A DNA stretch of 64,000 bases. It comes from Siphonodentalium dalli (taxonomy: Eukaryota; Mollusca; Scaphopoda; Gadilida; Siphonodentaliidae). The position numbers and the translations under genes were made by a program. Positions 14,600 through 24,325 of the stretch are shown in pieces. The DNA lies in the NCBI GenBank assembly GCA_032622095.1, contig CP136066.1, positions 169,954,664 through 170,018,663 on the forward strand, given 5' to 3'. Within the stretch, counting starts at the first letter, position 1; every line of letters begins with the position of its first letter. Below the pieces are notes generated by a model. That model made no database searches. It had not been told where the DNA came from and worked only from the letters and a program-made list of their open reading frames with translations.

Positions 14600-15580
14600 A
14601 TGTAAGTAAAAAATATAATTTTTTTTACCAAATTTGATTGCCATTTTGCAAGCTATCTTGGGTAATTTTGCCTAAATACACCTCATGGTCACGCATTTAA
14701 GACATATCAAACAATAACCAGATTTTATACCAATGATAGTTCCATTTTACTTGAAAAACATTTTTTTTGCCGGTTTTGACAATCAAGCGAGGTGCATCAG
14801 AAATGTTAGTATTCAATGTATAAAATACACAATAGCCAATTGTATTAATTATACCTCAACTTGTAACCGATTGCATGACACGCTGGGGCGATATCTACCA
14901 TTTTTAATATTTTGGCCGTCATTTTGGCAACCACTAAGTCAGATTGAGTTTGAATATTCATAAGTAATGGTATGCCTTACTTACATTGCACAGTTCTGCC
15001 CATTTCTTGTTGAAATATGACTACATTCCCAATGGTGATTTTTGGTAAATTTTTTACCGCATTCTATAAAATCAAATGTTTGAGGGATCGGACGAGACTG
15101 TGGCCACATGAATGGCACATTTCATTGCTCCAACGACCACTTAAATGAACAGTACAAAATAAAGCTAGAATTATCAGTCAGTTCCATACAGCAGAAACTG
15201 ATCTAGAGGTTATTAGTAGAAAAACATTTTACTATGAAAAGTGGAATTGTATCTTAGCTTCACAAAAGTATATACATTTGTATACATATGATTTTCTCAC
15301 TATAATTTGCATCAACCTAACTTGGTAAACCATCTGAAAAAACGGCGGATATGTTGGGCGCCATCTTGTCTGGTGTCTACACAGCCACTTTTTTCGTGTT
15401 AAAATTGATTCGAAGTTGAGGAGCATCATAAGGAAGAAAATGAGTCAGGTAAAGTTAAATCTTGGGGTGACTGTACCCTATCAGCTCCTGGACTAGTATA
15501 CATGTTAGCATAGTTAATTGGGGGAACTCTTGTTCCCATGGCAACTAGGTCCTAAATGTGGGTATGGTGAAACCTGCTTT
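14600..15580. other. No supported gene
   Basis: AT-rich single-copy-looking sequence. There is weak similarity between 14480-14590 and 14990-15070 (TTCTGCC.ATTTC... then TTTTTGGTAA) hinting at an old duplication. It ends in an (AT)n tract at 15584-15615 that abuts the Helitron-like element. Confidence 0.45.
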
Positions 15581-15582
15581 GA

Positions 15583-15615
<33 letters not shown>

Positions 15616-15616
<1 letters not shown>

Positions 15617-16360
15617 TAGCCGATGAGCCCGACGTTGTCCGGGCTATTAAAAAACCAAATTTCAAGTCGATAGCTCCACCCGTTTCCGAGATCTGGTCTG
15701 CGCATGGGCGAAGCTGGCGTCGCACGGGCTCGGCGACCCGATAAAATTCGTATCTGGGGCAAGATACATTCACATAGCAAATTTCAAGTCGATAGCCCCA
15801 CCCGTTTCTGAGATCTGGTCTGCGCATGCGCGAAGCTGGCGTCACACGGGCTCGGCGACCCGATCGTGTCCGGGCTATTAAAAAACCAAATTTCAAGTCG
15901 ATAGCCCCACCCGTTTCCGAGATCTGGTCTGCGCATGCGCGAAGCTGGCGTCGCACGGGCTCGGCGACCCGATAAAATTGGTATCCGGGGCAAGATACAT
16001 TCACATAGCAAATTTCAAGTCGATAGCTCCATCCGTTTCCGAGATCTGGTCTGCGCATGCGCGAAGCTGGCGTCGCACGGGCACGGCGACCCGATAAAAT
16101 TCGTATCCGGGGAAAGATACATTGACACAGCAAATTTCAAGTCGATAGCTCCACCCGTTTCCGAGATCACGTCTGCGCATGCGCGAAGCGGGCGCCGCAC
16201 GGGCTCGCCAATACGACAACGTCCACCGCCTGGTCAAACTACACACACGTACCAAGTTTCGTCCCGATCGGCCGAGAATCGTAGATTTGTATTAATGACA
16301 GACAAACAAACATACAGACAAACAAACAGACAAACAGAGGTCTTCAAAATATATATGAGA
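15616..16360 (-). mobile_element. Helitron-like non-autonomous element A1 (745 bp, five monomers)
   Basis: On the minus strand the element begins TCTCATATATATTTTGAAGA, followed by a GTCT/GTTT microsatellite. It has about five 122-bp monomers and ends with a hairpin (AGCCCG ... CGGGCT, 15645-15626), then CATCGG and CTAG (15619-15616), with T outside. A 5' TC, a 3' hairpin a few bases before CTAG, no terminal inverted repeat and a central minisatellite match the Helitron/Helentron-derived class (HINE; bivalve pearl type). No Rep/helicase is encoded. Confidence 0.8.
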
Positions 16361-16754
16361 CTAGCCGATGAGCCCGACGTTGTCCGGGCTATTCAAAAAC
16401 CAAATTTCAAGTCGATAGCTCTACCCAGCCCGAAATTTCAAGTCGATAGCTCTACCCGTTTCCGAGATCTCGAAGCTGGCGTCGCACGGGCTCGGCGACC
16501 CGATAAAATTCGTATCCGGGGCAAGATACATTCACGTACCAAATTTCAAGTCGATAGCTCCACCCGTTTCCGAGATATCGTCTGCGCATGCGTTGCACGG
16601 GCGCCGCACGGGCTCGCCAATACGACAACGACCACCGCCTGGTCAAACTACACACACGTACCAAGTTTCGTCCCAATCGGTCGAGAATCGTAGATTTGTA
16701 TTAATGACAAACAGACAAACAGACAGACAGACAGACAGAGGTCTTCAAAATATA
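16361..16754 (-). mobile_element. Helitron-like element A2, joined head-to-tail to A1
   Basis: Its CTAG end (16361-16364) directly abuts the TC start of A1, so the two sit end-to-start with no host DNA between. It has two monomers plus a duplicated 3' terminal module. Its own 5' terminus diverges at about 16754, where the Penelope-like element begins. Confidence 0.78.
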
Positions 16755-18377
16755 TTGAGCAAAACAATACAGGAAGCAATCAAACAGCAAAACTCAACAT
16801 ATATAGAGATCTGTGAACCAGACGATCTGAAATTGAGACCAATTATCGCTGGATCCTCTTGTCCCACTAACAGACTCAGCAATTTCTTGGACATAATCAT
16901 GAAACCATTATGTGGAAAAATACCAAGCTACATGTACATAAGAGATGACATGGATTTTGTCAGAGAATTGCCAGAAAGAACTGAAGAAGGGTCAACACTT
17001 GTGAGTTTTGATGTAGTTGGTCTCTACTCAAATATTCCACATGATTTAGGAATAAAAGCAGTAGAATACTGGATCGAAAAACATCACGATGTGATCGACA
17101 AGAGATTCAGTTATGACTTCATCGTACAAAGTTTGCGTATCAAATTGGAGAACAATAAGTTCTTCTTCAATGACAAATACTACCTACAAATAAAAGGAAC
17201 TGCCATGGGCACAAAAGTGGCCCCTACATTCGCAAACCTTGTTATGGGCTTACTAGAAAATGAACTATATACAAGAGCGGAAAACATCTTCCCATTGTCA
17301 ATAAGTACACATATTCGAACATCTTGGAGGAGATACCTTGACGATTGTTTTGTAATATGGATTGATTCAATGGACAGTCTCAACGAATTCCATGTGTTAC
17401 TTAATTCTCTGGACAAATCTATTCAGTTCACGAAGGATGCAAGCAAGGAGGAACTCCCATTCCTAGATGTTCTGGTAATTCTAAATAACACGAAAATTGA
17501 AACTGACATATATTATAAACCCACCGATACACACCAATATATGGATTTCCGCTCTTGCCACCCGTCGCAGACCAATAGAAATATTCCATATAGTCTTGCT
17601 AGACGTGTGTGCATGATCGTCAGTAATGCAGAAAGGAGACTTTTGAGACTAAAGGAATTAGAGTCATTCTTATCGAAACAACACTATCCAAAAGGTTTGA
17701 TTACAAATGGGATTCAGAGAGCCCAACTCATTCCAGAAAATGAATTACGGACTGCCAAACAGAAGTCCTCAGAAACTAACATTATTCCTTTTGTGACAAC
17801 ACACAATCCACACCACTTTAATATATCTGCAAAAGCCCAAGAATTACTACCAATTCTTCATACCAGTAATAAAATGCGATCTTTGGTGACCAAAGCGGAC
17901 ATTTTACCCGGCAAGCGTCAACCAAGGAACCTAAAACGCATGCTCACTGGTGCTAAATTCACGACAAACAGATCTAAGGAATATAAAGTCAACAAATGTG
18001 ACGATCCCAGATGTAAAGCGTGCCAGCACATCATAGAAGGAAATACTATTACCCTTAAAAACGGTATGAAGATATACACCAATGCCGATATGACGTGCAA
18101 GACAGTAAATCTGATATACTGTATAGTGTGTGATGGATGCGGAGAAAGCTATATTGGAGAAACTGGCAATAGTGTGGTTGAGCGTATGCGAATCCACCGA
18201 CAGCATATTAAGCAGCCAGAATACAGGAAGATTCCATTGAGTGCCCATCTGGACGATTGTGGAAGAAAGAGTTTCCATGTCTTCCCGTTCTGCAAGATGT
18301 ACAAGAGCAAAATACATCGCAAGATTCGGGAAGATTTCTTCAAAATCCTGTTCAAAGCAAAACTAAATGCTGACTAA
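16755..18377 (+). CDS. Penelope-like element polyprotein: reverse transcriptase + GIY-YIG (5'-truncated)
   Basis: The open frame runs uninterrupted to TAA at 18375-18377; upstream it continues by chance to an ATG at 16593 inside the Helitron repeat. Counting from that ATG, the PLE part starts near residue 55. RT motifs are RPII (82-85), FDVVGLYSNI (139-148, catalytic D140), GTAMGTKVAP (202-211), YLDD (248-251, catalytic pair), FLDV (290-293) and KPTDTHQYM (309-317). A Cys-rich linker (C469, C474, C477, H479) leads to a GIY-YIG endonuclease: LIY (507-509), YIGETG (520-525), R531, and E580 as the likely catalytic Glu. This order is diagnostic of endonuclease-bearing Penelope-like retroelements. 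About 540 residues remain; full-length proteins are longer, so the N-terminal part is missing. The absence of stops and frameshifts implies a recent insertion. Confidence 0.93.
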   Translation: MSKTIQEAIKQQNSTYIEICEPDDLKLRPIIAGSSCPTNRLSNFLDIIMKPLCGKIPSYMYIRDDMDFVRELPERTEEGSTLVSFDVVGLYSNIPHDLGIKAVEYWIEKHHDVIDKRFSYDFIVQSLRIKLENNKFFFNDKYYLQIKGTAMGTKVAPTFANLVMGLLENELYTRAENIFPLSISTHIRTSWRRYLDDCFVIWIDSMDSLNEFHVLLNSLDKSIQFTKDASKEELPFLDVLVILNNTKIETDIYYKPTDTHQYMDFRSCHPSQTNRNIPYSLARRVCMIVSNAERRLLRLKELESFLSKQHYPKGLITNGIQRAQLIPENELRTAKQKSSETNIIPFVTTHNPHHFNISAKAQELLPILHTSNKMRSLVTKADILPGKRQPRNLKRMLTGAKFTTNRSKEYKVNKCDDPRCKACQHIIEGNTITLKNGMKIYTNADMTCKTVNLIYCIVCDGCGESYIGETGNSVVERMRIHRQHIKQPEYRKIPLSAHLDDCGRKSFHVFPFCKMYKSKIHRKIREDFFKILFKAKLNAD

Positions 18378-18379
18378 TG

Positions 18380-18431
18380 ACGTAATAGCCGGAAGTGCAT
18401 GGGAGAGTTATCTCCCTTGCGTCTATTACGT
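18380..18431 (+). other. Nested hairpin in the PLE 3' UTR
   Basis: Three bases after the stop codon, ACGTAATAG (18380-18388) pairs with CTATTACGT (18423-18431). Inside, GGGAGA (18401-18406) pairs with TCTCCC (18411-18416). The inner part on the minus strand is the AAGGGAGATAACTC word common across molluscan genomes. It sits just upstream of the ribozyme and could act in template recognition or 3'-end formation (inference). Confidence 0.75.
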
Positions 18432-18442
18432 ACGACAATAAC

Positions 18443-18490
18443 AGTCTACTGAAGAGTGCAATGATACTAAGCACGAAAGGCCTCTAGACT
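18443..18490 (+). ncRNA. Hammerhead ribozyme motif (type I, minimal/dimer form)
   Basis: All conserved parts are present in order. Stem I is AGTCTA (18443-18448) with TAGACT (18485-18490). The core is CTGAAGA (18449-18455), and stem II is GTGC/GCAC (18456-18459, 18471-18474) with an 11-nt loop. GAAA spans 18475-18478, stem III is AGGCCT (18478-18483), and the cleavage triplet is CUC, with cutting expected after C18484. Stem III has no loop, but AGGCCT is self-complementary, so two molecules can pair to give a 6-bp stem III. This is the dimeric arrangement described for hammerheads in Penelope-like elements and some satellites. Only the 3' copy exists because the element is 5'-truncated. Confidence 0.87.
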
Positions 18491-18540
18491 TACAAATGTA
18501 TTAAATGATCGTGTTATAAGTCATGTCTCCATTCTTTTGG

Positions 18541-18543
<3 letters not shown>

Positions 18544-18574
<31 letters not shown>
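18544..18574. repeat. (AT)n microsatellite
   Basis: About 31 bp of alternating AT follow the PLE 3' end and are the likely insertion target or tail. Confidence 0.9.
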
Positions 18575-21269: not shown

Positions 21270-21725
21270 TTTCATATATATGTTGAAGACGTCTGTCGGT
21301 CTGTATGTATGTATGTCTGTATGTATGTATGTATGTATGTAATTTATACAAATCTACGATTCTCGACCGATCGGGACAAAACTTGGTACGTGTGTGTAGT
21401 TTGACCAGGCGGTCGTCGTTGTCGTATTGGCGAGCCCGTGCGGCGCCCGATTCGCGCATGCGCAGACGAGATCTCGGAAACGGTTGGAGCTATCGACTTG
21501 AAATTTGGTATGTGAATGTATCTTGCCCCGGATACGAATTTTATCGGGTCGCCGTGCCCGTGCGACGCCAGATTCGCGCATGCGCAGACCAGATCTCGGA
21601 AACGGGTAGAGCTATCGACTTGACATTTGGTTTTTGAATAGCCCGGACAACGTCGGGCTGGGTAGAGCTATCGACTTGAAATTTGGTTTTTGAATAGCCC
21701 GGACAACGTCGGGCTCATTGGCTAG
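21270..21725 (+). mobile_element. Helitron-like array element 1 (456 bp, two monomers)
   Basis: It begins near 21270 with TTTCATATATATGTTGAAGA, a diverged 5' end, followed by (TGTA)n/(TGTC)n. Monomer GCGCATGCGC cores are at 21453 and 21575 (122 bp apart). The 3' hairpin module is duplicated before CTAG at 21722-21725. The left neighbour is the 200-bp minisatellite. Confidence 0.8.
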
Positions 21726-22293
21726 TCTCATATATATTTTGAAGACCTCTGTTTGTTTGTCCGTTTGTCTGTATGTTGTTTGTCTGTCATTTATACAAAT
21801 CTACGATTCTCGACCGATCGGTACGAAACTTGGTACGTGGGTGTAGTTTGACCAGGCGGTCGACGTTGTCGTATTGGCGAGCCCGTGCGGCGCCCGCTTC
21901 GCGCATGCGCAGACGAGATCTCGGAAACGGGTGAGCTATCGACTTGAAATTTGCTATGTGAATGTATCTTGCCCCGGATGCGAATTTTATTGGGTCGCCG
22001 AGCCCGTGCGACGCCAGCTTCGCGCATGCGCAGACGAGATATCGGAAACGGGTGGAGCTATCGTCTTGAAATTTGGTATGTGAATGTATCTTGCCCCGGA
22101 TACGAATTTTATCGGGTCGCCGAGCCCATGCGACGCCAGCTTCAGGCATGCGCAGACCAGATCTCGGAAACGGGTAGAGCTATCGACTTGAAATTTGGTT
22201 TTTGAATAGCCCGGACAACGTTTGGCTAGGTAGAGCGATCGACTTGAAATTTGGTTTTTGAATAGCCCGGACAACGTCGGGCTCATCGGCTAG
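21726..22293 (+). mobile_element. Helitron-like array element 2 (568 bp, three monomers)
   Basis: It starts with TC directly after the CTAG of element 1. Monomer cores are at 21900, 22021 and a mutated one at 22143. The 3' module is duplicated, and the first hairpin copy has TTTGGCT in place of TCGGGCT. It ends CTAG at 22290-22293. Confidence 0.82.
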
Positions 22294-22969
22294 TCTCATA
22301 TATATTTTGAAGACCTCTGTCTGTATGTTTGTCTGTCTGTCTGTCTGTCATTAATACAAATCTACGATTCTCGACCGATCGGGACGAAACTTGGTACGTG
22401 TGTGTAGTTTGACCAGGCGGTGAACGTTGTCGTATTGGCGATCCCGTGCGGCGCCCGCTTCGCGCATGCGCAGACGAGATCTCGGAAACGGGTGGAGCTA
22501 TCGACTTGAAATTTGGTATGTGAATGTATCTTGCCCCGGATACGAATTTTATCGGGTCGCCGAGCCCGTGCGACACCAGCTTCGCGCATGCGCAGACGAG
22601 ATCTCGGAAACGGGTGGAGCTATCGACTTGAAATTTTCTATGTGAATGTATCTTGCCCCGGATACGAATTTTATCGGGTCGCCGAGCCCGTGCGACGCCA
22701 GCTTCGCGCATGCGCAGACGAGATCTCGGAAACGGGTGGAGCTATCGACTTGAAATTTGGTATGTGAATGTATCTTGCCCCGGATACGAATTTTATCGGG
22801 TCGCAGAGCCCGTGCGACGCCAGCTTCGCGCATGCGCAGACCAGATCTCGGAAACGGGTGGAGCTTTCGACTTGAAATTTGGTTTTTGAATAGCCCGGAC
22901 AACGGGTGGAGCTATCGACTTGAAATTTGGTTTTTGAATAGCCCGGACAACGTCGGGCTCATCGGCTAG
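22294..22969 (+). mobile_element. Helitron-like array element 3 (676 bp, four monomers)
   Basis: This is the longest unit of the array, with cores at 22461, 22583, 22705 and 22827, exactly 122 bp apart. The (GTCT)n tract follows the 5' end. It ends CTAG at 22966-22969. Confidence 0.83.
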
Positions 22970-23531
22970 TCTCATATATATTTTGAAGACCTCTGTCTGT
23001 ATGTATGTTTGTTTGTTTGTTTGTTTGTCTGTCATTAATACAAATCTACGATTCTCGACCGATCGGGACGAAACTTGGTACGTGTGTGTAGTTTGACCAG
23101 GCGGTGAACGTTGTCGTATTGGCGAGCCCGTGCGACGCCAGCTTCGCGCATGCGCAGACGAGATCTCGGAAACGGGTGGAGCTATCGACTTGAAATTTGG
23201 TATGTGAATGTATCTTGCCCCGGATACGAATTTTATCGGGTCGCAGCGCCCGTGCGACGCCAGCTTCGCGCATGCGCAGACGAGATCTCGGAAACGGGTG
23301 GAGCTATCGACTTGAAATTTGGTATTTGAATGTATCTTGCCCCGGATACGAATTTTATCGGGTCTCAGAGCCCGTGCGACGCCAGCTTCGCGCATGCGCA
23401 GACCAGATCTCGGAAACGGGTGGAGCTTTCGACTTGAAATTTGGTTTTTGAATAGCCCGGACAACGGGTGGAGCTATCGACTTGAAATTTGGTTTTTGAA
23501 TAGCCCGGACAACGTCGGGCTCATCGGCTAG
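22970..23531 (+). mobile_element. Helitron-like array element 4 (562 bp, three monomers)
   Basis: Cores are at 23145, 23267 and 23389. Its 5' microsatellite (GTTT)n and its 3' end are nearly identical to element 3, so 3 and 4 probably share a recent duplication differing by one monomer. It ends CTAG at 23528-23531. Confidence 0.83.
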
Positions 23532-23937
23532 TCTCATATATATTTTGAAGACCTCTGTCTGTATGTATGTTTGTTTGTTTGTTTGTTTGTCTGTCATTAA
23601 TACAAATCTACGATTCTCGACCGATCGGGACGAAACTTGGTACGTGTGTGTAGTTTGACCAAACGGTGAACGTTGTCGTATTGGCGAGCCCGTGCGGCGC
23701 CCGCTTCGCGCATGCGCAGACGAGATCTCGGGAACGGGTGGAGCTATCGACTTGAAATTTGGTATGTAAATGTATCTTGCCCCGGATACGAATTTTATCG
23801 GGTCGCCGAGCACGTGCGACGCCAGCTTCGCGCATGCGCAGACGAGATCTCGGAAACGGGTGGAGCTATCGACTTGAAATTTGGTTTTTGAATAGCCCGG
23901 ACAACGTCGCCCGGACAACGTCGGGCTCATCGGCTAG
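23532..23937 (+). mobile_element. Helitron-like array element 5 (406 bp, two monomers)
   Basis: Cores are at 23707 and 23829. The 3' hairpin is partly duplicated (CCCGGACAACGTCG twice). It ends CTAG at 23934-23937. Confidence 0.82.
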
Positions 23938-24325
23938 TCTCTTATATATTTTGAAGACCTCTGTCTGTATGTCTGTCTGTATGTCTGTATGTATGTCATT
24001 TATACAAATCTACGATTCTCGACCGATCGGGAGGAAACTTGGTACGTGTGTGTAATTTGACCAGGCGGTCGTCGTTGTCGTATTGGCGAGCCCGTGCGAC
24101 GCCAGCTTCGCGCATGCACAGACCAGATATCGGAAACGTGTGGAGCTATCGACTTGAAATTTGCTATGTGAATGTATCTTGCCCCGAATACGATTTTTAT
24201 CGGGTCGCCGAGCCCGTGCGACGCAAGTATCGCGCATGTGCAGACCAGATCTCAGAAACGGGAGGAGCTATCGACTTGAAATTTGGTTTTTGAATAGCCC
24301 GGACAACGTCGGGCTCATCGGCTAG
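23938..24325 (+). mobile_element. Helitron-like array element 6 (388 bp, two monomers)
   Basis: It is the most diverged of the six: the palindromic cores at 24109 and 24231 are mutated (GCATGCACA, GCATGTGCA). It ends CTAG at 24322-24325, again followed directly by TC. Confidence 0.8.

Follow-up and report, generated by a model that had tools for sequence, protein, structure and literature searches.

A probable dimer-type minimal hammerhead ribozyme in the pseudo-LTR of a Penelope-like element of Siphonodentalium dalli

The locus examined here raises the question of whether a short motif, lying 65 nt beyond the stop codon of a Penelope-like element (PLE), is a hammerhead ribozyme (HHR) and, if so, how its self-complementary stem III might be used. 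We analyzed the window, by which we mean the whole stretch of 64,000 nucleotides, together with relatives of the element in the 2.23-Gb assembly. The motif has all the conserved core positions of a type I hammerhead, namely CUGANGA, GAAA, the A15.1-U16.1 pair and H17 of the Rfam family RF00163, and its core is of the standard form (C3-G8), unlike the variant cores of several sister families. Its position, the complete set of conserved residues and the perfect 6-bp stem I, as given in a preliminary description of this DNA, agree exactly with our reading of the sequence (Table 1). In our view the motif is very probably a minimal dimer-type hammerhead of type I, situated in a PLE pseudo-LTR; the comparisons of related sequences below document the conserved core, covarying stems, self-complementary stem III and, elsewhere in the genome, HHRs flanking tandem units.

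Table 1. Features of the hammerhead motif and its host element, in window coordinates.
Feature	Position	Strand	Details
Type I HHR	18443..18490	+	core pattern, Rfam score, family alignment, leave-family-out model
Stem I	18443-18448/18485-18490	+	AGTCTA/TAGACT, 6 Watson-Crick pairs
Core CTGAAGA	18449-18455	+	
Stem II	18456-18474	+	GTGC/GCAC, 11-nt loop
GAA	18475-18477	+	
Stem III AGGCCT	18478-18483	+	palindrome
C17	18484	+	predicted cut just after
5'-truncated PLE, family A	16758..18550	+	97% identical to L027:2514-4288; 3' end 18550 common to many copies
Open frame	16593..18377	+	PLE part from 16758; flanking repeat before
Reverse transcriptase domain, partial (RVT_1)	16872..17378	+	Pfam PF00078, E 3.1e-7, residues 94-262
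GIY-YIG endonuclease domain	18111..18365	+	Pfam PF01541, E 2.2e-4, 21.9 bits; cut-off 22.6, 0.7 bit short
Stable 3' UTR hairpin with GAGTTATCTCCC	18380..18431	+	fold of 18378-18440, z -3.83, 0/200 shuffles equally stable
PLE sequence 3' of cut site	18491..18543	+	in 42 long matches listed (query spanned it); other copies end within
(AT)n microsatellite, 3' junction	18544..18574	.	insertion target or primed end

The host had been taken for a PLE, and this is borne out by the RVT_1 match and the slightly sub-threshold GIY-YIG match in one frame; the pair of pseudo-LTRs typical of such elements comes from other copies and not from the one in the window. The frame, described earlier as still open, is so over the part that remains, but the copy lacks ~1.9 kb at its 5' side, as counted from the ATG at L027:661, and the first 165 nt of the ORF belong to a flanking repeat. 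Thirty-nine of the 42 long matches listed (the window included; 40 of 167 candidates were scored) show 96-100% identity, which would point to a fairly recent spread of family A. The earlier reading of the window copy, which is 5'-truncated, as evidence of current activity is not supported. Repeats spaced at 122 bp flank the copy in opposite orientations (15646-16739 and 21365-23997), and the left array begins beside an (AT)n stretch at 15578-15615. In several PLE families the stop codon is directly followed by a GAGTTATCTCCC-like motif with TGACGTCA-like boxes (window 18380-18431; flanks of L028, L030 and L033), a possible promoter or protein-binding structure; GAGTTATCTCCC or a close form is also found in flanks of families B, C and E.

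The core pattern alone yields 5 matches in the window against 3.5 expected, which is not significant, and RF00163 scores the motif at 18.9 bits, short of its gathering score of 34 (E 0.033 over 191 nt); hence, the hammerhead claim needed further support. A scan of the whole window with RF00163 gave zero matches at gathering level, the same model reported none of nine loci with sister HHRs at E <=1, and across the genome it returned one chance-level match (24.1 bits, E 1.69) among the 73 of 419419 candidates scored. The gathering cut-off is a detection threshold rather than a mechanistic feature, and the Rfam type I model misses HHRs of this sort. A covariance model was built from 11 motifs outside family A, which represent six further HHR types in this genome, so that the family of the window was left out. 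The single match of this model in the 64-kb window, at E up to 10, is exactly 18443-18490 (39.5 bits, E 3.3e-7). The comparison with Rfam that had been proposed as a check on the motif thus fell below the cut-off, while the model of same-genome families recovered it. At E <=0.01 the latter model matched 56 of the 77 loci tested (part of 120 fetched), its 11 source motifs among them; the 21 missed include the family-A copies L013 and L060 along with truncated or overly short flanks and flanks in which no motif was expected.

The sister families came from a search of the assembly with the PLE protein (84 of 3436 candidates scored; relatives listed from 100% down to 40% identity), after which flanks were fetched; the labels A, for the family in the window, to H were made for this analysis. 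Families B to H carry six further HHR types, with B and C sharing one HHR sequence. In B-G the HHR follows the stop codon, and in H it precedes the frame of the next unit; the H HHR was at the expected place in 4 of 10 loci checked (L044, L073-L081). The first HHR scans of these families gave no match, despite a standard core in some of them, because their stem and score limits were strict; the motifs were first seen by eye in 3' flanks, and a relaxed pattern scan, free of restriction at positions 3/8 and in stem III, came next. Of the 22 distinct motifs collected, 13 were aligned and nine were left out, these being eight family-A copy variants and one type assigned to none of the families (L014/L021). 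Since a motif entered the list of 22 only if positions 3/8 were C-G, U-A or U-G and stem III was one of five hexamers, the 100% pairing there is partly by construction.

In the 13-HHR alignment, stems I and II covary among the relatives, as expected of a type I hammerhead: two-sided changes occur at 13 of 15 pairs (8 of 500 shuffles reach 13), 87.2% of cells are paired against 58.9% when shuffled, and the covariation score is 0.783 against 0.244 (0/500), whereas structures slid along the alignment are 28-42% paired. The number of further standard pair types showed no excess (22 against 22.2 shuffled). The motif might still be a chance match to the hammerhead core, given the chance-level pattern count and the low Rfam score; however, this covariation, the match of the independent leave-family-out model and the similar place after the stop codon in related families lead us to reject this reading as practically negligible. 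The type left out of the alignment, at L014:1197-1238 (-) and L021:55-96 (-), which are one genomic place, is hammerhead-like, with a CTGAAGA core, an 8-bp stem I and a non-palindromic stem III, AAGCCT, and scores 36.2 bits with the leave-family-out model. L082-L085, tried as a further family, were set aside when L083 and L085 proved to carry the family-F HHR.

The natural variants bear on how stem III is used. AGGCCU is its main form in A to G, and ACCGGU takes its place in H (L044, L073, L074, L080, L086 and L088), where both inner pairs have been exchanged, GGCC to CCGG, with self-complementarity kept. Judged from sequence comparison, this exchange is the best sign that stem III would pair with another copy. 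Stem III is thus self-complementary among the relatives, as in dimer-type PLE hammerheads, save that the palindrome is broken in single copies (L010, L016, L021 and L039) and in the L014/L021 type; the core is broken in the 3' copy of L027 and in both copies of L002. Positions 3/8 are C-G in A, F and G and U-A in B-E and H, with a U3-G8 pair in one A copy, L007. A midpoint-rooted tree of 13 reverse transcriptase (RT) fragments, in which E and H are long branches, joins A to B, C and D with support that is not strong (81/88), and F to G (98/99). If these groupings hold, the 3-8 pair would have changed at least twice. The first pair of stem II is U-U (U10.1-U11.1) in E, F and G.

The monomer of the window HHR folds no better than its shuffles (z -0.49) and is predicted to keep stems I and II. 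The epithet loopless, previously given to its stem III, is apt for the full 6-bp intramolecular stem, but a monomer can form one A-U pair closing a GGCC tetraloop, at a predicted cost of 5.3 kcal/mol relative to an open stem III. The predicted lowest-energy homodimer is an exact double hammerhead (-24.9 kcal/mol), with an ensemble binding energy of -7.06 kcal/mol and a predicted Kd of ~1.1e-5 M (~11 uM). Among seven family representatives, an inter-strand stem III is predicted in six and the exact double hammerhead for A and G only; D, E and H have the same topology with an extra predicted U3-A17 pair, the F homodimer is without stem I, and B pairs otherwise. For F and H the predicted Kd values are 2.2 mM and 0.4 mM. 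Among the 256 possible inner tetramers of the window HHR, GGCC ranks fifth in predicted binding, with four non-palindromes ahead of it. We reject dimerisation in trans as the main mode because the predicted Kd is too weak: according to these models, separate RNAs that bind with a micromolar or weaker Kd are unlikely to pair in a cell, so that tandem copies joined in cis are the likelier partners. The earlier proposal that stem III joins two RNAs is therefore favored by a palindrome kept in related families, once by full exchange, and weakened where separate RNAs are meant.

Tandem copies do exist in this genome. Each of the three tandem units fetched (L021, L022 and L027) has an HHR on either side, giving the two HHRs per unit of dimer-type PLE hammerheads, while the window copy has only one. 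L021 and L022, both broken up by insertions, comprise an upstream piece with its own HHR, the coding part and an HHR on the 3' side; in L027 the two HHRs are 3703 bp apart, the coding part consists of two overlapping frames, and an HHR lies ~120 nt upstream of the next frame's first ATG. The genome holds 90 exact cores (0 in a reversed control), and neighboring pairs of these within 6 kb are same-strand in eight cases, head-to-head in nine, of which two look like copies of one duplicated stretch, and tail-to-tail in none. By analogy, the head-to-head pairs fit priming on both strands, as seen in vitro for the Poseidon element PAc of Anolis (PMC11167929). At L002 such a pair is bordered by (AT)n on both outer sides; L007 is known only through matches. 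A PLE family ~41% identical to that of the window (L044; C6:25303653-25314776; C3:268172062-268178387) has uninterrupted RT matches in tandem units ~4.78 kb apart, with the HHR ~145 nt before an ATG taken by eye as the next start.

The 3' ends of the copies indicate which RNA was copied. The 42 long matches listed all reach at least 18546, a count biased by a query that spanned the stretch and by the scoring of 40 of 167 candidates. Two ends recur: GGATC followed by (AT)n at 18543/18544, ~60 nt beyond the cut, and CGGTT followed by (TA)n, ~39 nt past the first. Among 15 further copies fetched, known only from an upstream query, five reach a recurrent end (L089, L091, L095, L102 and L103) and 10 end earlier, four of the latter being copies of one duplicated stretch; 14 of the 15 extend beyond the cut site. 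The exact cores are unchanged for 8 nt past C17 in 75 of 90 cases and for 8 nt upstream in 67. Thirteen of the remaining 15 have point changes, small insertions or deletions past C17, and two (L101 and L104) end at C17, so 88 of the 90 run on into PLE sequence past the cut site, which means that their RNA templates were uncut there (or re-joined). As a rule, then, the copied RNA would have been uncut at the HHR site, or re-joined. The 3' ends of L101 and L104 (family A) at C17 lie in (TC)n(TA)n with different flanks, and that of L117 (family B) lies at A17 in (TA)n; as the junctions share bases with the target (CTCT in A, TATA in B), they are ambiguous, and we do not claim these three copies as proof of cut templates. 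The exact-core pattern is blind to copies ending before C17, such as L060, which diverges ~3 nt before it.

Taken together, these observations can be accommodated as follows. In a transcript of tandem units, two HHRs would pair via AGGCCU and crossed stem I strands into a double hammerhead, predicted to cut after C17 and to release a unit-length RNA with a 5'-OH and a 2',3'-cyclic phosphate. Reverse transcription would usually begin beyond the cut site, and in many cases (TA)n targets would prime it at AU-rich sites within the element; where it starts on RNA uncut at the HHR, cleavage would not be needed for the insertion. Weighing against this account, HHR mutants of the Anolis element had no effect on insertion in vitro (PMC11167929). 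It is conceivable, if distinctly improbable, that the palindromic stem III serves as a copy counter: putative cutting would need two pseudo-LTRs in one RNA, which would limit processing to tandem-unit transcripts, and insertion would occasionally use the cut 3' end, L101, L104 and L117 being the copies in point.

Two other readings have to be weighed against dimer action. The HHR might act as a monomer through the single A-U pair and the GGCC tetraloop, perhaps assisted by the PLE protein, with the palindrome being incidental. Cleavage of the Anolis PLE HHR, for which stems I and II were described, required added PLE protein in vitro (PMC11167929), and the monomer here should retain these same two stems; however, the predicted cost of the one-pair stem III and the family-H palindrome, kept through a two-pair exchange, make this somewhat unlikely. 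Alternatively, cleavage might be vestigial and the motif kept for a structural or protein-binding role in the pseudo-LTR, close to where reverse transcription starts, which would sit well with the copying of uncut RNA in nearly all exact cores and with the continued insertion of the Anolis mutants in vitro. We regard this too as unlikely, since families whose proteins are 41-61% identical keep the catalytic core, G12-A14, A15.1-U16.1 and the 3-8 pair included.

Minimal type I HHRs of PLEs were reportedly described by Cervera and de la Pena in 2014 and by Lunse, Weinberg and Breaker in 2017. In the passages and paper listings consulted, we found no mention of an exchange of the palindrome between sister PLE families. 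That hammerheads occur in PLEs had been put forward as established knowledge, and indeed dimeric minimal PLE HHRs, in tandem, without a monomer stem III and acting as dimers, are described in the portions consulted of two papers (PMC7761336, PMC6466107). As far as those portions go, the pseudo-LTR site, the tandem arrangement and the weak or missing monomer stem III are as here, dimer action being predicted in our case, and nothing categorical sets the two apart; what this genome contributes is a family whose stem III palindrome has been exchanged. What is new is thus a member of the PLE HHR family, the kind itself having been described already. Palindromic stem III loops have likewise been reported (PMC3088659, PMC7229834; both consulted in part): the satellite HHRs of newt and axolotl (HHR_Amex1) resemble the window HHR in having a single stem III pair and a palindromic tetraloop, and this type works better as a dimer, but they sit in short tandem retrozymes, whereas the window HHR is in an RT-coding PLE (PMC7229834). 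Natural U3-A8, as in families B-E and H, and the U10.1-U11.1 mismatch, as in E, F and G, appear in the consulted part of Perreault et al. 2011 (PMC3088659), and we accordingly do not present natural U3-A8 as a novelty. PAc shares with our element an HHR in the pLTR, AT-rich targets, unprocessed RNA as the main template and an optional tail between two internal RT start sites (30-40 bp there, ~39 bp here), but its HHR overlaps the start of the ORF whereas ours follows the stop (PMC11167929). The role of hammerheads in PLEs has been called a mystery (in the part consulted of PMC7761336); with seven HHR types, and with natural paired exchanges affecting both the catalytic 3-8 pair and the stem III palindrome, this genome offers a ready set for testing dimer action.

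Two further arrangements were noted among the copies. Four same-strand copies on C8 (at 18574403, 18607805, 18642131 and 18677110), 33-35 kb apart and sharing a 3' flank, look like a tandem segmental duplication. At L106, L108, L109 and L110 (C3:28.37-28.64 Mb) a hammerhead fragment, whose core was read only beside L106 (L113) and is broken there, adjoins a repeated sequence, the reverse complement of which resembles, by eye, a C2H2 zinc-finger coding sequence.
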